A stretch of 13,290 bases of DNA from Candidatus Dadabacteria bacterium (lineage in GTDB: Bacteria > Desulfobacterota_D > UBA1144 > Nemesobacterales > JADFKM01): the NCBI GenBank assembly GCA_022564935.1, contig JADFKM010000057.1, forward strand, positions 1 to 13,290. The letters run 5' to 3'. How positions within the stretch are numbered: position 1 is the first letter of the stretch; each line of letters opens with the position of its first letter. The translations under genes and the position numbers were made by a program. The notes below the pieces were generated by a model that did no database searches, had not been told where the DNA came from, and saw only the letters and a program-made list of their open reading frames with translations. This document shows, in pieces, positions 4,215 to 8,595 of the stretch.

Positions 4215-4241
4215 TGTGCGATTCACATAGATCGTTTCAAT
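4215..4241 (+). repeat. IS481 terminal inverted repeat, left
   Basis: A 27-bp repeat starting TGTGCGATTCA. It matches the reverse complement of 5208-5234 at 22 of 27 positions. The 3' end of the transposase frame runs into it. Confidence 0.85.
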
Positions 4242-4642
4242 TTTCTTAATCGCAATTCTATCTTATAATCCGCTTCCTGTATATGCTCTTTAGATTCATC
4301 GTACATATCTCCTACCTCCTCCCAGAGTGGCGTTTTGTGCATTAGTTCGAAGTACTTATCCATAGGTGTCTTTCCGCTCAAAGATCCGTGTGGACGGTGC
4401 GAGTTGTAGAAGTGCTGCCATTCCTGCAACAGGTCTTCCAGCGTAGGATCATTGAGGTCAACGGTTGAATAAAACTCCTCAAAGTCTGTTCTCTGTGAGC
4501 GCTCTGCTTTGCCGTTGAGATGAGGGGACTTGGGTTTAATGGGACGGAACTTAATGCAGTACTCCATTAGTTTTTTCTGTACCTTATAGGCAAAAAACTC
4601 CCTGTCCCTGTCGGTCTGAATTCTCTGGATGGCAAACGGCAT
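4223..4642 (-). pseudogene. IS481-family transposase, C-terminal half
   Basis: This 139-aa frame continues the N-terminal half (4643-5194) in the same frame after a single TAA. It holds the remainder of the DDE integrase core: Asp in QTDRDREFF (residue 195 of the whole) and Glu in HLNGKAERSQRT (residue 231). Exactly 35 residues lie between them, the DD35E spacing. The C-terminal LNDPTLEDLLQEW and FYNSHRPHGSL are typical of IS481/IS3-type transposases. An ATG follows the stop directly (UAA AUG), but no ribosome-binding site supports real re-initiation. TDRDREF has Asp where I would expect Gly (TDRGREF) in this family, a second possible mutation. Alone, this half lacks the DNA-binding domain and the first catalytic Asp, so the element is probably immobile unless served in trans. 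Confidence 0.8.
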
Positions 4643-5194
4643 TTACTCAATGAGCTTCTCCAAAAAAAGTAAAGTATTTGAAGCAGTCCTTTTTTTATAA
4701 AGCCCCAAGGCCCTGTATCTGGTGCAATCATCCACCGCAGTATATTGATATAGACCGGACGCAATTTTGCAGGTGTCTATCTGCACCCTTTCTCCGGGAA
4801 TAGGCCTTGAGTATCGTTTGAAATCTTTTTTACGCCTATGTCTTTTCAGAGGCGCAGCATTATTTCTTTTGAGAACCTTATGGATGGTAGCCAGGGAGAA
4901 TGAGATGTCGTGGTGTCTTTTTAACTCGTTCTGAATCCTTCTTGCCCCGATCTTTCTTTTTTTTCTGAGCTGTAATATTAATTTTTCTTGCTGCTCAAAT
5001 ACTTTAGTTTTTGGAGAGCGTTTTGGCCTTCGGCTGAGGCTACAAAGACCTTCGATTCCATTCTCCTTATATCTTTTAACCCACTTCCTCAAAGTAGGTC
5101 TGGATATCCCGCATCTCCTGCAAACTAAACCGGCATTCCCAGTTTCCAAATAAAGCTCAACCCAGCCAAGTCTCTTCTTAATTTCTCTGCTCAT
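4643..5194 (-). pseudogene. IS481-family transposase, N-terminal half (ends at premature TAA)
   Basis: A 183-aa frame starting at ATG 5192-5194. Residues 26-50 (CRRCGISRPTLRKWVKRYKE region) form a helix-turn-helix of the homeodomain-like type that binds the IS ends. A basic linker (RRPKRSPKTK, KRHRRKKDFKR) follows, and then the start of the integrase catalytic core with the first catalytic Asp in GERVQIDTCKI (D140). The frame halts at TAA (4643-4645) after FLEKLIE. Sequence characteristic of the same protein resumes immediately in frame, so one nonsense change (for example GAA to TAA) explains the split. Joined, the protein would be about 323 aa, a normal IS481 length. A perfect TATAAT (5203-5208, minus strand) lies just upstream of the start but lacks a convincing -35. 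Confidence 0.82.
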
Positions 5195-5240: not shown

Positions 5241-5813
5241 CTATATCTCCATAATTTCTTTTTCTTTTTCTCCTAAGATTTCATTTATTTTTTTTATGTA
5301 ATCGTCGGTTAAGCTCTGAATCTTTGTGAGAGCACTTTTTACTTTATCCTCGGAGATGTGCTCTTCCTTTTCTACTTCCTTCATATAATTATTGGAGTCT
5401 TTTCGTATCTGTCTTATGGTGATTCTGTGATCTTCTGTTATTTTACCGACATGTTTAACGAGCTCTTTTCTTCTTTCTTCGGTGAGGTTTGGAATCACAA
5501 GTCTAATTATCTTGCCGTCGTTGGTCGGGTTTATTCCGAGGTCGGATTTTTGTATCGCCTTTTCAATTTCCCTAATAGCATTTGTATCCCATGGCTGAAT
5601 GATTATGGTTCTGGGCTCAGGCACGGAGATTGACGACATCTGGTTTAGGGGAGTTTGTGTGCCGTAATAATCCGCTCTGATATCTTCGACCAGCGATGTG
5701 GATGCCCTGCCTGTTCTGAGCTTTGAAAATTCGTTTCTAAGGGATTGTGCAGAATTTTCCATTCTGTTCTTTGCATCGTCTAAAATTTCGTCAAGGATTT
5801 GATCTTCGCTCAA
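5241..5813 (-). CDS. frr: Ribosome recycling factor
   Basis: Cytoplasmic RRF, 190 aa (family about 185). With EF-G it splits the post-termination ribosome so that subunits can be reused. Seen: an N-terminal helix with [20 protein letters not shown], the family signature KLRTGRAS near residues 31-38, the domain II stretch [21 protein letters not shown], and a long charged C-terminal helix ending [10 protein letters not shown], as usual for RRF. The protein is therefore complete although an IS element lies 5 nt beyond its stop codon. The start is TTG at 5811-5813, overlapping the pyrH stop as TTGA, which implies translational coupling. No strong ribosome-binding site is visible. It is the last gene of rpsB-tsf-pyrH-frr. 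The uppS and cdsA genes that often follow in other bacteria are not present downstream. Confidence 0.95.
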
Positions 5814-6532
5814 TGTTTGCTGGCTCTCACGATTGATCCAATCTCTTCACCCATAACAATTCTTTTTATATTGCCCTCCTCAAAGAGGTTGAACACTATA
5901 ATGGGTATATTGCCCTCCATGCATAGAGAGATGGCGGTTGCGTCCATGACTTTTAGTTCCTGCTTCAGAACTTCCATGTAGCTTAAATCCTTGAATTTAA
6001 CTGCATCGTCATGGATTAAGGGGTCTTTGTCGTAAACCCCGTCCACCTTAGTGGCCTTTAGGATAACGTCGGCGCCGATTTCCAGGGCCCTGAGAGTGGC
6101 TGCGGTATCTGTGGTAAAAAAAGGGTTGCCCGTTCCGGCTGCTAATATTACAACCCTGCCCTTCTCCAGGTGTCTGATGCATCTCCTTCTTATGTAAGGC
6201 TCGGCGACCTGTTTAATTTCCAGGGCCGATTGCACCCTTGTATGTACGTCTTTCCTCTCAAGAAAATCCTGTAGAGCAAGGGCGTTAATAACGGTGGCCA
6301 GCATTCCCATGTAGTCGGACGCTGCCCTGTCAATTCCTGATTTGGTACCTGAATTGCCCCTGAATATATTGCCTCCGCCTATCACTACGGCAACTTGTAT
6401 CCCCAAGAAATGAATTTCCGATATTTCTCCGGTAATTTTTTCAATAACACTGTCGCTAATTCCATAACCCGCTTCACCCTGAAGCGCCTCACCGCTGATT
6501 TTTAACAGGATCCTTTTGTAATTGGGTGTCAT
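5810..6532 (-). CDS. pyrH: Uridylate (UMP) kinase
   Basis: Bacterial-type UMP kinase, 240 aa, of the amino-acid-kinase fold. It phosphorylates UMP to UDP in pyrimidine nucleotide synthesis, in the cytoplasm as a homohexamer in known members. Seen: the N-terminal phosphate-binding segment [13 protein letters not shown], the glycine-rich [11 protein letters not shown], the nucleotide-binding region [14 protein letters not shown], and [13 protein letters not shown], all standard for PyrH. The start is ATG at 6530-6532, 21 nt after the tsf stop, with no obvious Shine-Dalgarno sequence; coupling with tsf is likely. The 3' end overlaps the TTG start of frr. The position inside the rpsB-tsf-pyrH-frr cluster agrees with the assignment. 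Confidence 0.96.
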
Positions 6533-6553: not shown

Positions 6554-7165
6554 TTATTGCTCTTCATTGCTTTGACCGAGTTGATACCTTGTAAACCTGC
6601 TCACAACGATATTTTCGCCTACCTTTGCCACAAGCGCTTTGAGGAGCTCCTCTACCTTTATTTTCGGCTCTCTTATATACGGCTGCTCCATTAAACATTT
6701 CTCTTCAAAAAATTTGTCGATTTTTCCATCGACAATTTTTTCAGCTATTTTCTCGGGCTTGCCTGATTCTATCACCTGAGCTTTAAAGATTTCCTTCTCT
6801 TTTTCGAGTACTTCGCCGGGCACATCGTCTCTGGATACATAACTGGGTTTGTTTGCGGCAATCTGCATCGATATTTCCTTTGCAAAGTTTTGGAATTCGT
6901 CGTTTCTGGCGACAAAATCGGTTTCGCAATTGATTTCAACAAGTATGCCGATTTTCCCTCCTGCGTGTATGTACGATGCGACAATGCCTTCGGGTGTTGC
7001 TCTTCCGGCTTTCTTGTCGGCTTTTGCGAGTCCTTTAATCCTTAAAATATCCGTGGCCTTCTCGTAATCGCCGTTTGTTTCTTCAAGGGCCTGCTTGCAG
7101 CCCAGAAATGTTGCGCCCGTTCTGTCACGTAGTTCTTTGACCATCTTGGCCGATATTTCAGCCAT
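6554..7165 (-). CDS. tsf: Translation elongation factor Ts (short form)
   Basis: EF-Ts, 203 aa, the nucleotide exchange factor that releases GDP from EF-Tu. The N-terminal UBA-like domain has VKELRDRTGATFLGCKQAL. The core contact motif CETDFVARNDEF (D83, F84) that inserts into EF-Tu is intact. A single core domain then leads to VGENIVVSRFTRYQLG. The length fits the short class of EF-Ts rather than the 283-aa E. coli type. The usual TGAGMMDCK of the UBA domain reads TGATFLGCK here, which is atypical. Start ATG 7163-7165 overlaps the last base of the rpsB TAA (TAATG). It has a strong AAGGAGG (7176-7182) inside the rpsB 3' end, with 10 nt spacing. S2 and EF-Ts are commonly co-transcribed. Confidence 0.95.
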   Translation of the reverse strand: MAEISAKMVKELRDRTGATFLGCKQALEETNGDYEKATDILRIKGLAKADKKAGRATPEGIVASYIHAGGKIGILVEINCETDFVARNDEFQNFAKEISMQIAANKPSYVSRDDVPGEVLEKEKEIFKAQVIESGKPEKIAEKIVDGKIDKFFEEKCLMEQPYIREPKIKVEELLKALVAKVGENIVVSRFTRYQLGQSNEEQ

Positions 7166-8595
7166 TAATCTGTTTCCTCCTTCGGTTCCACTGTGTCTGA
7201 TGTTTGCTGAGTAGTTTCCTCTGCCAACTCGGGAGCTTGCGCCTCAGGGGCTTGGTCGTTGACTTCGTTCTCCTCAGTGGTCTCCTCGGCTGCGGTTTCT
7301 TGCTCTTGAGTTTCCTCGCTTGGGTTTTGATCCTTAGTCTCTATCTCTTCTGCTGATTCTGTGGATCCCTCTTCTATTGAATCTGTTTCTTGTTTTGAAT
7401 CAGTCAACTCATCAGATACGGTATCGGTCTCTTGAGCTTCCTCCGAAGCTTCTTCAGGTTCGGTACTTGACTCAGGCTCAGGAGTTTCATCCTCCTTATC
7501 AACTTGAGTTTGCGGTTCAGACTTCATAGTTGCTTCTACGTCCTCAGGTTCTGCTTCCGTATCGGGCTTCGGAGTTTGCTTAATGGACTCTTGTGCTAGT
7601 GCTTCATCCTTAGGAGTTTTATCTGTTTCGCCGTCCTTGGGTGTTTGAAAGATATCCGGAGCGGATTGAACAGAACCATTTGATGCTTGGGGCTGCGGCT
7701 CTTCGGTTTTAACGTCTTTGACTTCTACCTCTGTCTTTTCAGATTCAGCCGTTTCTTTTACAGAGGCAGTTTTGGTTTGTTCCTTCTGCTCATCGTATTC
7801 TCTAAATACAAAGACTTTCCTTTCCACTACAACCGGTTTTGCTTCTTCTTGCGCCTTAGGCAGTATCTCTCCTGAGCTAACCCTCTCCTCGTAGATATGT
7901 TTACCCTCTATACACGCCTCGGCTATTCGGGAAGTGAAGAGCTTGATTGCCCTTATGGCATCATCGTTTCCGGGAATTAAATAATCTGCGCTCGTGGGCT
8001 CGCAGTTCGTGTCAATTACAGCGACTACCGGAATGCCAAGCTTTTTTGCTTCATTTACGGCTATGTATTCCTTTCGGGTATCGACTACGAATAACGCCCG
8101 GGGCAGCCTTTTCATCATTATTATACCCCCGAGCAAATAATTTAATTTCTTTATCTGTCGCCTCAAGACTATTACTTCTTTCTTAGGCAGATGCTCCATC
8201 TGTTCATCCTCTTCCATTTTCATAAGCTGGAGCAGGTACTCCACTCTTGAATGTATTGTAGCGAAATTGGTTAATGTTCCTCCAAGCCATCTGGTGTTGA
8301 CGTACGGCATATTACACTTTTGAGATTCTTCGGAAATAATGCCCTGCGCCTGTTTTTTTGTGCCTACGAAGAGTATTGTGCCGCCGTCTGCAACTGTGTT
8401 TTTGATGTATTCGAAGGCTTTTTTGAAAAGCCCTGTGGTTTGTTGTAAATCGATGATGTGTATCCCGTTCCTAGCGCCGAATATGAACGGTTTCATTTTG
8501 GGATTCCAGTGGCTTATCTGATGGCCGAAGTGCACACCGGCCTCCAAAAGCTGTTTCATTGTAATGAGGTGGCTCACCTGGGTTACTTCACTCAT
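7165..8595 (-). CDS. rpsB: 30S ribosomal protein S2 with long acidic C-terminal extension
   Basis: Residues 1 to about 240 are a complete ribosomal protein S2: MKQLLEAGVHFGHQ, WNPKMKPFIFGARNGIHIID, TRWLGGTLTN, DTRKEYIAVNEAKKLGIPV and DTNCEP are all present. S2 sits on the back of the 30S subunit and helps hold S1. Usual length is about 230-260 aa; here the protein is 476 aa. Residues about 241-476 form a low-complexity tail rich in Glu, Thr, Ser, Pro, Asp and Gln. After F316 there is no Phe, Tyr, Trp, Arg, His or Cys, so the tail is predicted to be disordered and strongly negative. Only one short segment, VVVERKVFVFREYDE (about 255-269), looks structured. Start ATG has GGAGG 7 nt upstream. 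It is the first gene of the operon, with a predicted promoter at 8639-8667. Confidence 0.95.
   Translation of the reverse strand: MSEVTQVSHLITMKQLLEAGVHFGHQISHWNPKMKPFIFGARNGIHIIDLQQTTGLFKKAFEYIKNTVADGGTILFVGTKKQAQGIISEESQKCNMPYVNTRWLGGTLTNFATIHSRVEYLLQLMKMEEDEQMEHLPKKEVIVLRRQIKKLNYLLGGIIMMKRLPRALFVVDTRKEYIAVNEAKKLGIPVVAVIDTNCEPTSADYLIPGNDDAIRAIKLFTSRIAEACIEGKHIYEERVSSGEILPKAQEEAKPVVVERKVFVFREYDEQKEQTKTASVKETAESEKTEVEVKDVKTEEPQPQASNGSVQSAPDIFQTPKDGETDKTPKDEALAQESIKQTPKPDTEAEPEDVEATMKSEPQTQVDKEDETPEPESSTEPEEASEEAQETDTVSDELTDSKQETDSIEEGSTESAEEIETKDQNPSEETQEQETAAEETTEENEVNDQAPEAQAPELAEETTQQTSDTVEPKEETD

Follow-up and report, generated by a model that had tools for sequence, protein, structure and literature searches.

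Organization of the rpsB locus

The window analysed here, a stretch of 13,290 nucleotides, is one whole contig (C75) of a Candidatus Dadabacteria draft genome, which comprises 1.99 Mb in 104 contigs and is 88.6% complete. It carries the gene for ribosomal protein uS2, rpsB, in the bacterial gene context rpsB-tsf-pyrH-frr on the minus strand. The features considered are as follows.

7165-8595, minus strand: rpsB (uS2) open reading frame, 476 aa, a length that rests on one draft contig
7876..8595, minus strand: uS2 body, residues 1-240 (PF00318 over residues 16-231; TIGR01011 over residues 11-233; AlphaFold2 pLDDT mostly >90)
7834..7875, minus strand: variable acidic linker, residues 241-254 (SGEILPKAQEEAKP), beginning with SGE or AGE in most relatives, pN/pS above that of the body
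7801..7833, minus strand: near-invariant basic/hydrophobic motif, residues 255-265 (VVVERKVFVFR), from the motif profile, pN/pS and column counts
7168..7800, minus strand: distal acidic tail predicted to be disordered, residues 266-476, 211 aa, net charge -54, from composition, charge and pLDDT
6554..7165, minus strand: tsf (EF-Ts; PF00889), its start overlapping the S2 stop as TAATG
5810..6532, minus strand: pyrH (UMP kinase; PF00696), next gene, order and strand kept
5241..5813, minus strand: frr (ribosome recycling factor; PF01765), next gene, order and strand kept

The uS2 body scored 309 bits with PF00318 (cut-off 26.1) and 329 bits with TIGR01011 (cut-off 76.3), and its last helix spans residues 214-240 in the AlphaFold2 model. 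Elsewhere in the window, a transposase-like gene with HTH and rve integrase domains (4223-5194, minus strand) lies just downstream of frr; it is split into abutting ORFs (4643-5194 and 4223-4642) and is possibly a decayed insertion element. A tandem pair of MFS/Atg22-like transporter genes encoding similar proteins occupies positions 162-1418 and 1556-2815 on the plus strand. No RNA leader was detected in the window with Rfam.

An earlier sequence-only reading had described a complete S2 core to about residue 240 followed by a tail of 236 residues, and this description holds, with codons 241-476 occupying exactly positions 7168-7875 and the tail running to the junction at which its stop and the tsf start overlap. 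The reported lack of aromatic residues, Arg, His and Cys between residues 317 and 476 was likewise borne out, the last Phe being at residue 316, Tyr at 267, Arg at 265, His at 233, Cys at 228 and Trp at 103. The tail is coding, acidic and of low complexity; residues 277-476 contain 66 Asp/Glu and 14 Lys/Arg, a net charge of -52. The disorder proposed for it is also predicted by the charge-hydropathy rule, which classifies the tail as disordered and the body as folded, and by AlphaFold2, in which residues 251-476 have a pLDDT of about 43-65 per 10-residue block and show no secondary structure. No Pfam family was matched in the tail even at an E-value of 10, and no solved-structure homologue of the tail base was found.

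An assembly error, a frameshift or a recent read-through could in principle have fused an unrelated ORF to rpsB, and the fragmented, incomplete state of the draft and the lack of a same-family genome for comparison leave room for such an event. However, the chance of 236 stop-free codons at the local base composition is approximately 5.6e-6; over the tail, the two alternative frames on this strand are interrupted by 9 and 24 stops. The amino-acid make-up of the tail has a cosine similarity of 0.96 to the pooled tails of relatives, whereas among 303 other ORFs of the window genome the C-terminal 211 residues reach no more than 0.84. The tail DNA is without tandem repeats, which also speaks against DNA repeat expansion as the source of its length. 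The rare open frame, the relative-like composition and the absence of tandem repeats thus make read-through or misassembly unlikely. Relatives are tailed too, the conserved motif lies in frame, and in some of them (L002 and L009) the tail also ends at tsf as TAATG. An origin by error is therefore already largely refuted and is considered very improbable.

A tail and a near-invariant motif across the Dadabacteria

A total of 56 genomes of the same order and class were compared, the window's own family having no second genome. The S2 protein was detectable in 53 of them, and the tails were read in most of these. Every relative read has a tail, in frame, extending 45-107 residues past residue 240: 45-48 in f8 (small genomes), 53-58 in f4, 60-61 in f7, 66-74 in f6, 73 in f5 and 84-107 in f2, a range that leaves out L020, whose tail is interrupted by a contig end. 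The corresponding length in the window is 236 residues. An S2 ending near residue 250 in close relatives, which the sequence-only reading had named as a sign of error, was found in none of those read. Its description of a doubled S2 is upheld in that the length is exceptional here, but the tail itself is not unique, being universal in the Dadabacteria genomes read. The part past the motif measures 21-84 residues in relatives and 211 in the window, about 2.5 times the longest relative, and the mean Asp/Glu content of the distal tails is 25-37% in every family over lengths from 21 to 211 residues. In the tree of S2 bodies, the window stands alone on a long branch of uncertain placement. Among named records, the closest is Candidatus Dadabacteria UBA2774; one relative, G035, matches it exactly in the S2 tail and the bases after it (L022, L031), and the group is called Dadabacteria here for this reason. 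The S2 gene was not detected in another relative, G034, which is a single contig of 1.6 Mb and 91% complete.

About 15 residues past the body, each Dadabacterial tail read carries a segment with the consensus [VI]VERK[VA]FVFK. There are small variants: two f4 genomes have VIERK, f5 has VEKKVYVFK and VEKRVHVFR, and in the window FK is replaced by FR. A motif profile of 20 columns was built from 20 sequences, which match it by construction; independent tests are provided by the remaining relatives and by 138 outside genomes. In 53 of 56 relatives the profile had a single match, located at the S2 tail, and the three genomes without a match were also without an S2 hit. It had no match in the 138 genomes of other lineages, and a second copy in the window genome was not found beyond an eight-residue match with an E-value of 0.13.

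Because synonymous sites are near saturation in f4 and parts of f8, selection was assessed by pN/pS instead of dN/dS. The motif had a pN of 0 in f6, f2g9 and f2g2 despite pS values of 0.32, 0.61 and 0.11, respectively, and a pN/pS of about 0.07 in f4 and f8 (overall range 0-0.075). The pN/pS of the S2 body was 0.04-0.13, that of the distal tail 0.18-0.52 and that of the linker 0.14-0.70, the last exceeding the body in every family. The motif is ten codons long and each single ratio is noisy, so that the weight lies in the agreement of five groups and in the identity across families. The constraint on the motif is no weaker than that on the ribosomal fold to which it is attached, and the phylum-wide near-invariance of the motif, rather than the doubled length, is the notable new result. 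The segment VVVERKVFVFREYDE, singled out earlier as a possible anchor, is thus strongly supported as a conserved element by the profile and by pN/pS, whereas anchoring is a role that we infer for it.

Selection on the distal tails was measured in the relatives, the window's 211 residues having no same-family counterpart. To judge from the substitution patterns, relatives do translate their distal tails, on which purifying selection acts less strongly than on the motif (dN/dS 0.12-0.34 within families, where computable). The sequence of these tails is poorly conserved and their length changes by in-frame indels.

Acidic tails also occur on other ribosomal proteins of the window genome. In a sample of 825 kb, or 41% of this genome, containing 697 ORFs of 100 aa or more, uS2 and bL17 have the two longest C-terminal stretches of the acidic, E/T/S/P/D/Q-rich kind; the remaining entries of the short list are bL25 and others that are Ser/Pro/Thr-rich rather than acidic, or shorter. 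The two additional ribosomal proteins are as follows.

L193:14388-15194, contig C20, minus strand: bL17 of the window genome, with a 152-residue acidic tail
L204:180-851, contig C30, plus strand: bL25 (CTC type) of the window genome, with a short acidic tail at its end

The length of the S2 tail correlates with that of the bL17 open frame across 46 genomes (Spearman 0.72, uncorrected for relatedness). This joint rise fits a general permissiveness to tails, and together with the poor conservation and the indels of the distal sequence it is consistent with the window's distal tail being largely non-functional drift, in which a permissive, solvent-exposed terminus expanded in one lineage and only the motif matters. 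The purifying selection on the relatives' distal tails, their acidity in every family and the prominence of ribosomal proteins (uS2, bL17 and bL25) among the bearers of acidic E/T/S/P/D/Q tails argue against it, and drift as the main explanation is regarded as distinctly unlikely.

Surroundings of the motif and its possible role

In the AlphaFold2 models, the pLDDT of the motif was about 40-47, whether the tail was complete or the protein was truncated at residue 280. That the motif is predicted to stay unfolded with or without the distal tail would fit a partner other than S2. The alignments behind these models contained just two motif-bearing sequences, so the evidence against docking on S2 itself is weak; docking in cis, for which both runs gave low confidence, was set aside but is not strongly excluded.

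At the mRNA exit site, uS2 carries the OB1 domain of bS1, and the E. coli residues joining the two proteins have been reported (PMC10123108). Matched by eye, their apparent counterparts in the window S2 are HFGH, PFIF and PGNDD. The S1 of the window genome is full-length, with FAELYEDSVKE near its N-terminus as the apparent counterpart, again by eye, of the S2-binding segment. S1 docking thus looks ordinary in the window genome, and with both sets of binding residues apparently intact, nothing suggests that the tail replaces it. Leaving the end of the S2 body, the tail could reach the S1/mRNA-exit area. Of the sequence-only interpretation, which is partly supported overall, the suggested influence on S1, on mRNA docking or on ribosome hibernation found no support. 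The loss of bS21 was also considered as a cause of the tail. Its gene, rpsU, has no match in the window genome and is present in all 41 relatives that are at least 90% complete, but dnaG, its neighbour in relatives, has no match either. An assembly gap over the rpsU-dnaG-rpoD region is therefore likely, the absence of bS21 is not evidence, and this explanation was dropped.

The motif probably binds a partner on the ribosome or close to it. The explanation tentatively preferred here, at somewhat less than an even chance, is that the Dadabacterial tail is a phylum-specific uS2 extension whose motif docks in trans on a ribosomal neighbour and whose acidic part serves as a polyanionic bristle. The ten-residue basic/hydrophobic segment [VI]VERK[VA]FVFK would lie as an extended strand on a fixed partner; this is most likely an adjacent surface of the ribosome, near the uS2/bS1 side of the 30S subunit, such as 16S rRNA, bS1 or another ribosomal protein. 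The distal acidic tail would remain free and disordered, its exact sequence and length mattering little, and may stop RNA and other proteins from adhering to the mRNA-exit surface or to freshly synthesized S2. This bristle would have grown to 211 residues in the lineage of the window. Such docking and a partly drifting distal tail can both be partly true. A more ambitious version, in which the motif is a docking site not described before that defines the phylum, is confined to the Dadabacteria and recruits or fixes a specific partner at the mRNA-exit side while the acidic tail tunes RNA access, appears unlikely.

It is also conceivable, though somewhat unlikely, that the motif is the recognition site of a non-ribosomal trans factor, with the acidic tail as a flexible tether; a chaperone dedicated to S2, a factor in hibernation or in transcription coupling, or a protease or modifier would be candidates. 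Extreme constraint on a short linear motif within a disordered region is typical of peptide-recognition motifs, and the ten residues considered here show such constraint. Their failure to fold onto S2 in AlphaFold2 points the same way, and their restriction to the Dadabacteria among the genomes searched fits a lineage-specific partner. However, no candidate partner of this kind emerged, and Dadabacterial rRNA or ribosomal proteins could equally be the lineage-specific partner, as in the preferred docking on a ribosomal neighbour.

Tails on ribosomal proteins are common, and most of them have no assigned function. In the present case, ten residues are preserved throughout a phylum no less strictly than the fold that bears them, and the rest of the tail is free to vary. 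The motif therefore offers a clean, mutable element for asking what such tails bind, and the tails themselves form a natural series of lengths, from 45 to 236 residues beyond the S2 body.

Comparison with other lineages and known systems

Among 150 S2 entries listed from a domain-wide set of 279 S2-bearing genomes, the window's open frame of 481 codons, counted from stop to stop, is the longest, followed by frames of 458, 436 and 414. In 20 long frames that were read, much of the length lies upstream of the body, and the C-terminal tails reach up to about 133 residues. S2 tails are thus widespread and of a known kind, and the window is extreme in length. The S2 tails of other groups carry recurring segments of their own, e.g., KKVSRFEGDIDLKGVDAADLEAME, KPFVDESVLEEEKYDEYE, ITKEIAQNFTEEDNEDDIPGGVWRAED and EAITAADAGVE, in L050-L074 (Bdellovibrionota), L032-L048 (Syntrophorhabdus and related), L052-L053 (rumen bacteria) and L070-L110 (mostly Gastranaerophilales). 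One further tail of about 110 residues (L152, G162:C96:5100-7000) has at its end an apparent helical segment of the SAP/Rho-N type (MTVAELRKLAKERGLSGYSALKKAELIALIEEN).

The S2 of E. coli is 241 aa long. Lineage-specific, mostly disordered extensions of ribosomal proteins are reported to be common across bacteria and were defined in a Mycoplasma pneumoniae survey as reaching past the E. coli terminus by more than 20 residues (PMC9534751). At 476 aa, against 241 aa in chains such as 11bq_B and 7ug7_SB, the window S2 exceeds this length, and its tail is predicted to be disordered by charge-hydropathy and AlphaFold2. Like the extensions in that survey, Dadabacterial S2 reaches well past the E. coli terminus and is predicted to be disordered there; unlike them, it has a phylum-wide near-invariant short motif and is far longer in the window.

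The NCBIfam families NF051451 (S2) and NF051448 (50S L17), termed "sunset domain variants", resemble the present case in that both proteins are extended, as are uS2 and bL17 here. The window S2 scored 292.8 bits with NF051451 (cut-off 710), its match ending at model position 309 of 382 and leaving the last 73 positions unmatched, and the bL17 of the window genome scored 156.9 bits with NF051448 (cut-off 280). With scores so far below the cut-offs, neither protein is a sunset-domain member, and the pairing of S2 with L17 is a parallel. Among the papers searched, none was relevant to the NCBI "sunset domain".

Eukaryotic uS2 (RPSA, the 67-kDa laminin receptor) has a C-terminal region with acidic TEDWS-like repeats (PMC12026610). 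It shares an acidic C-terminal extension with the window uS2, but the window tail is without such repeats, having no Trp, and the body is bacterial; no evidence of a shared origin of the two extensions was found.

In actinobacteria, a C-terminal extension of bS16 binds uS4 (PMC10085706; PMC6133939). The two cases differ in the protein concerned and in that the bS16 docking has been seen by cryo-EM, whereas that of the S2 motif is what we infer. The bS16 extension is likewise a lineage-specific ribosomal-protein tail, and it offers a model for how the S2 motif may dock.
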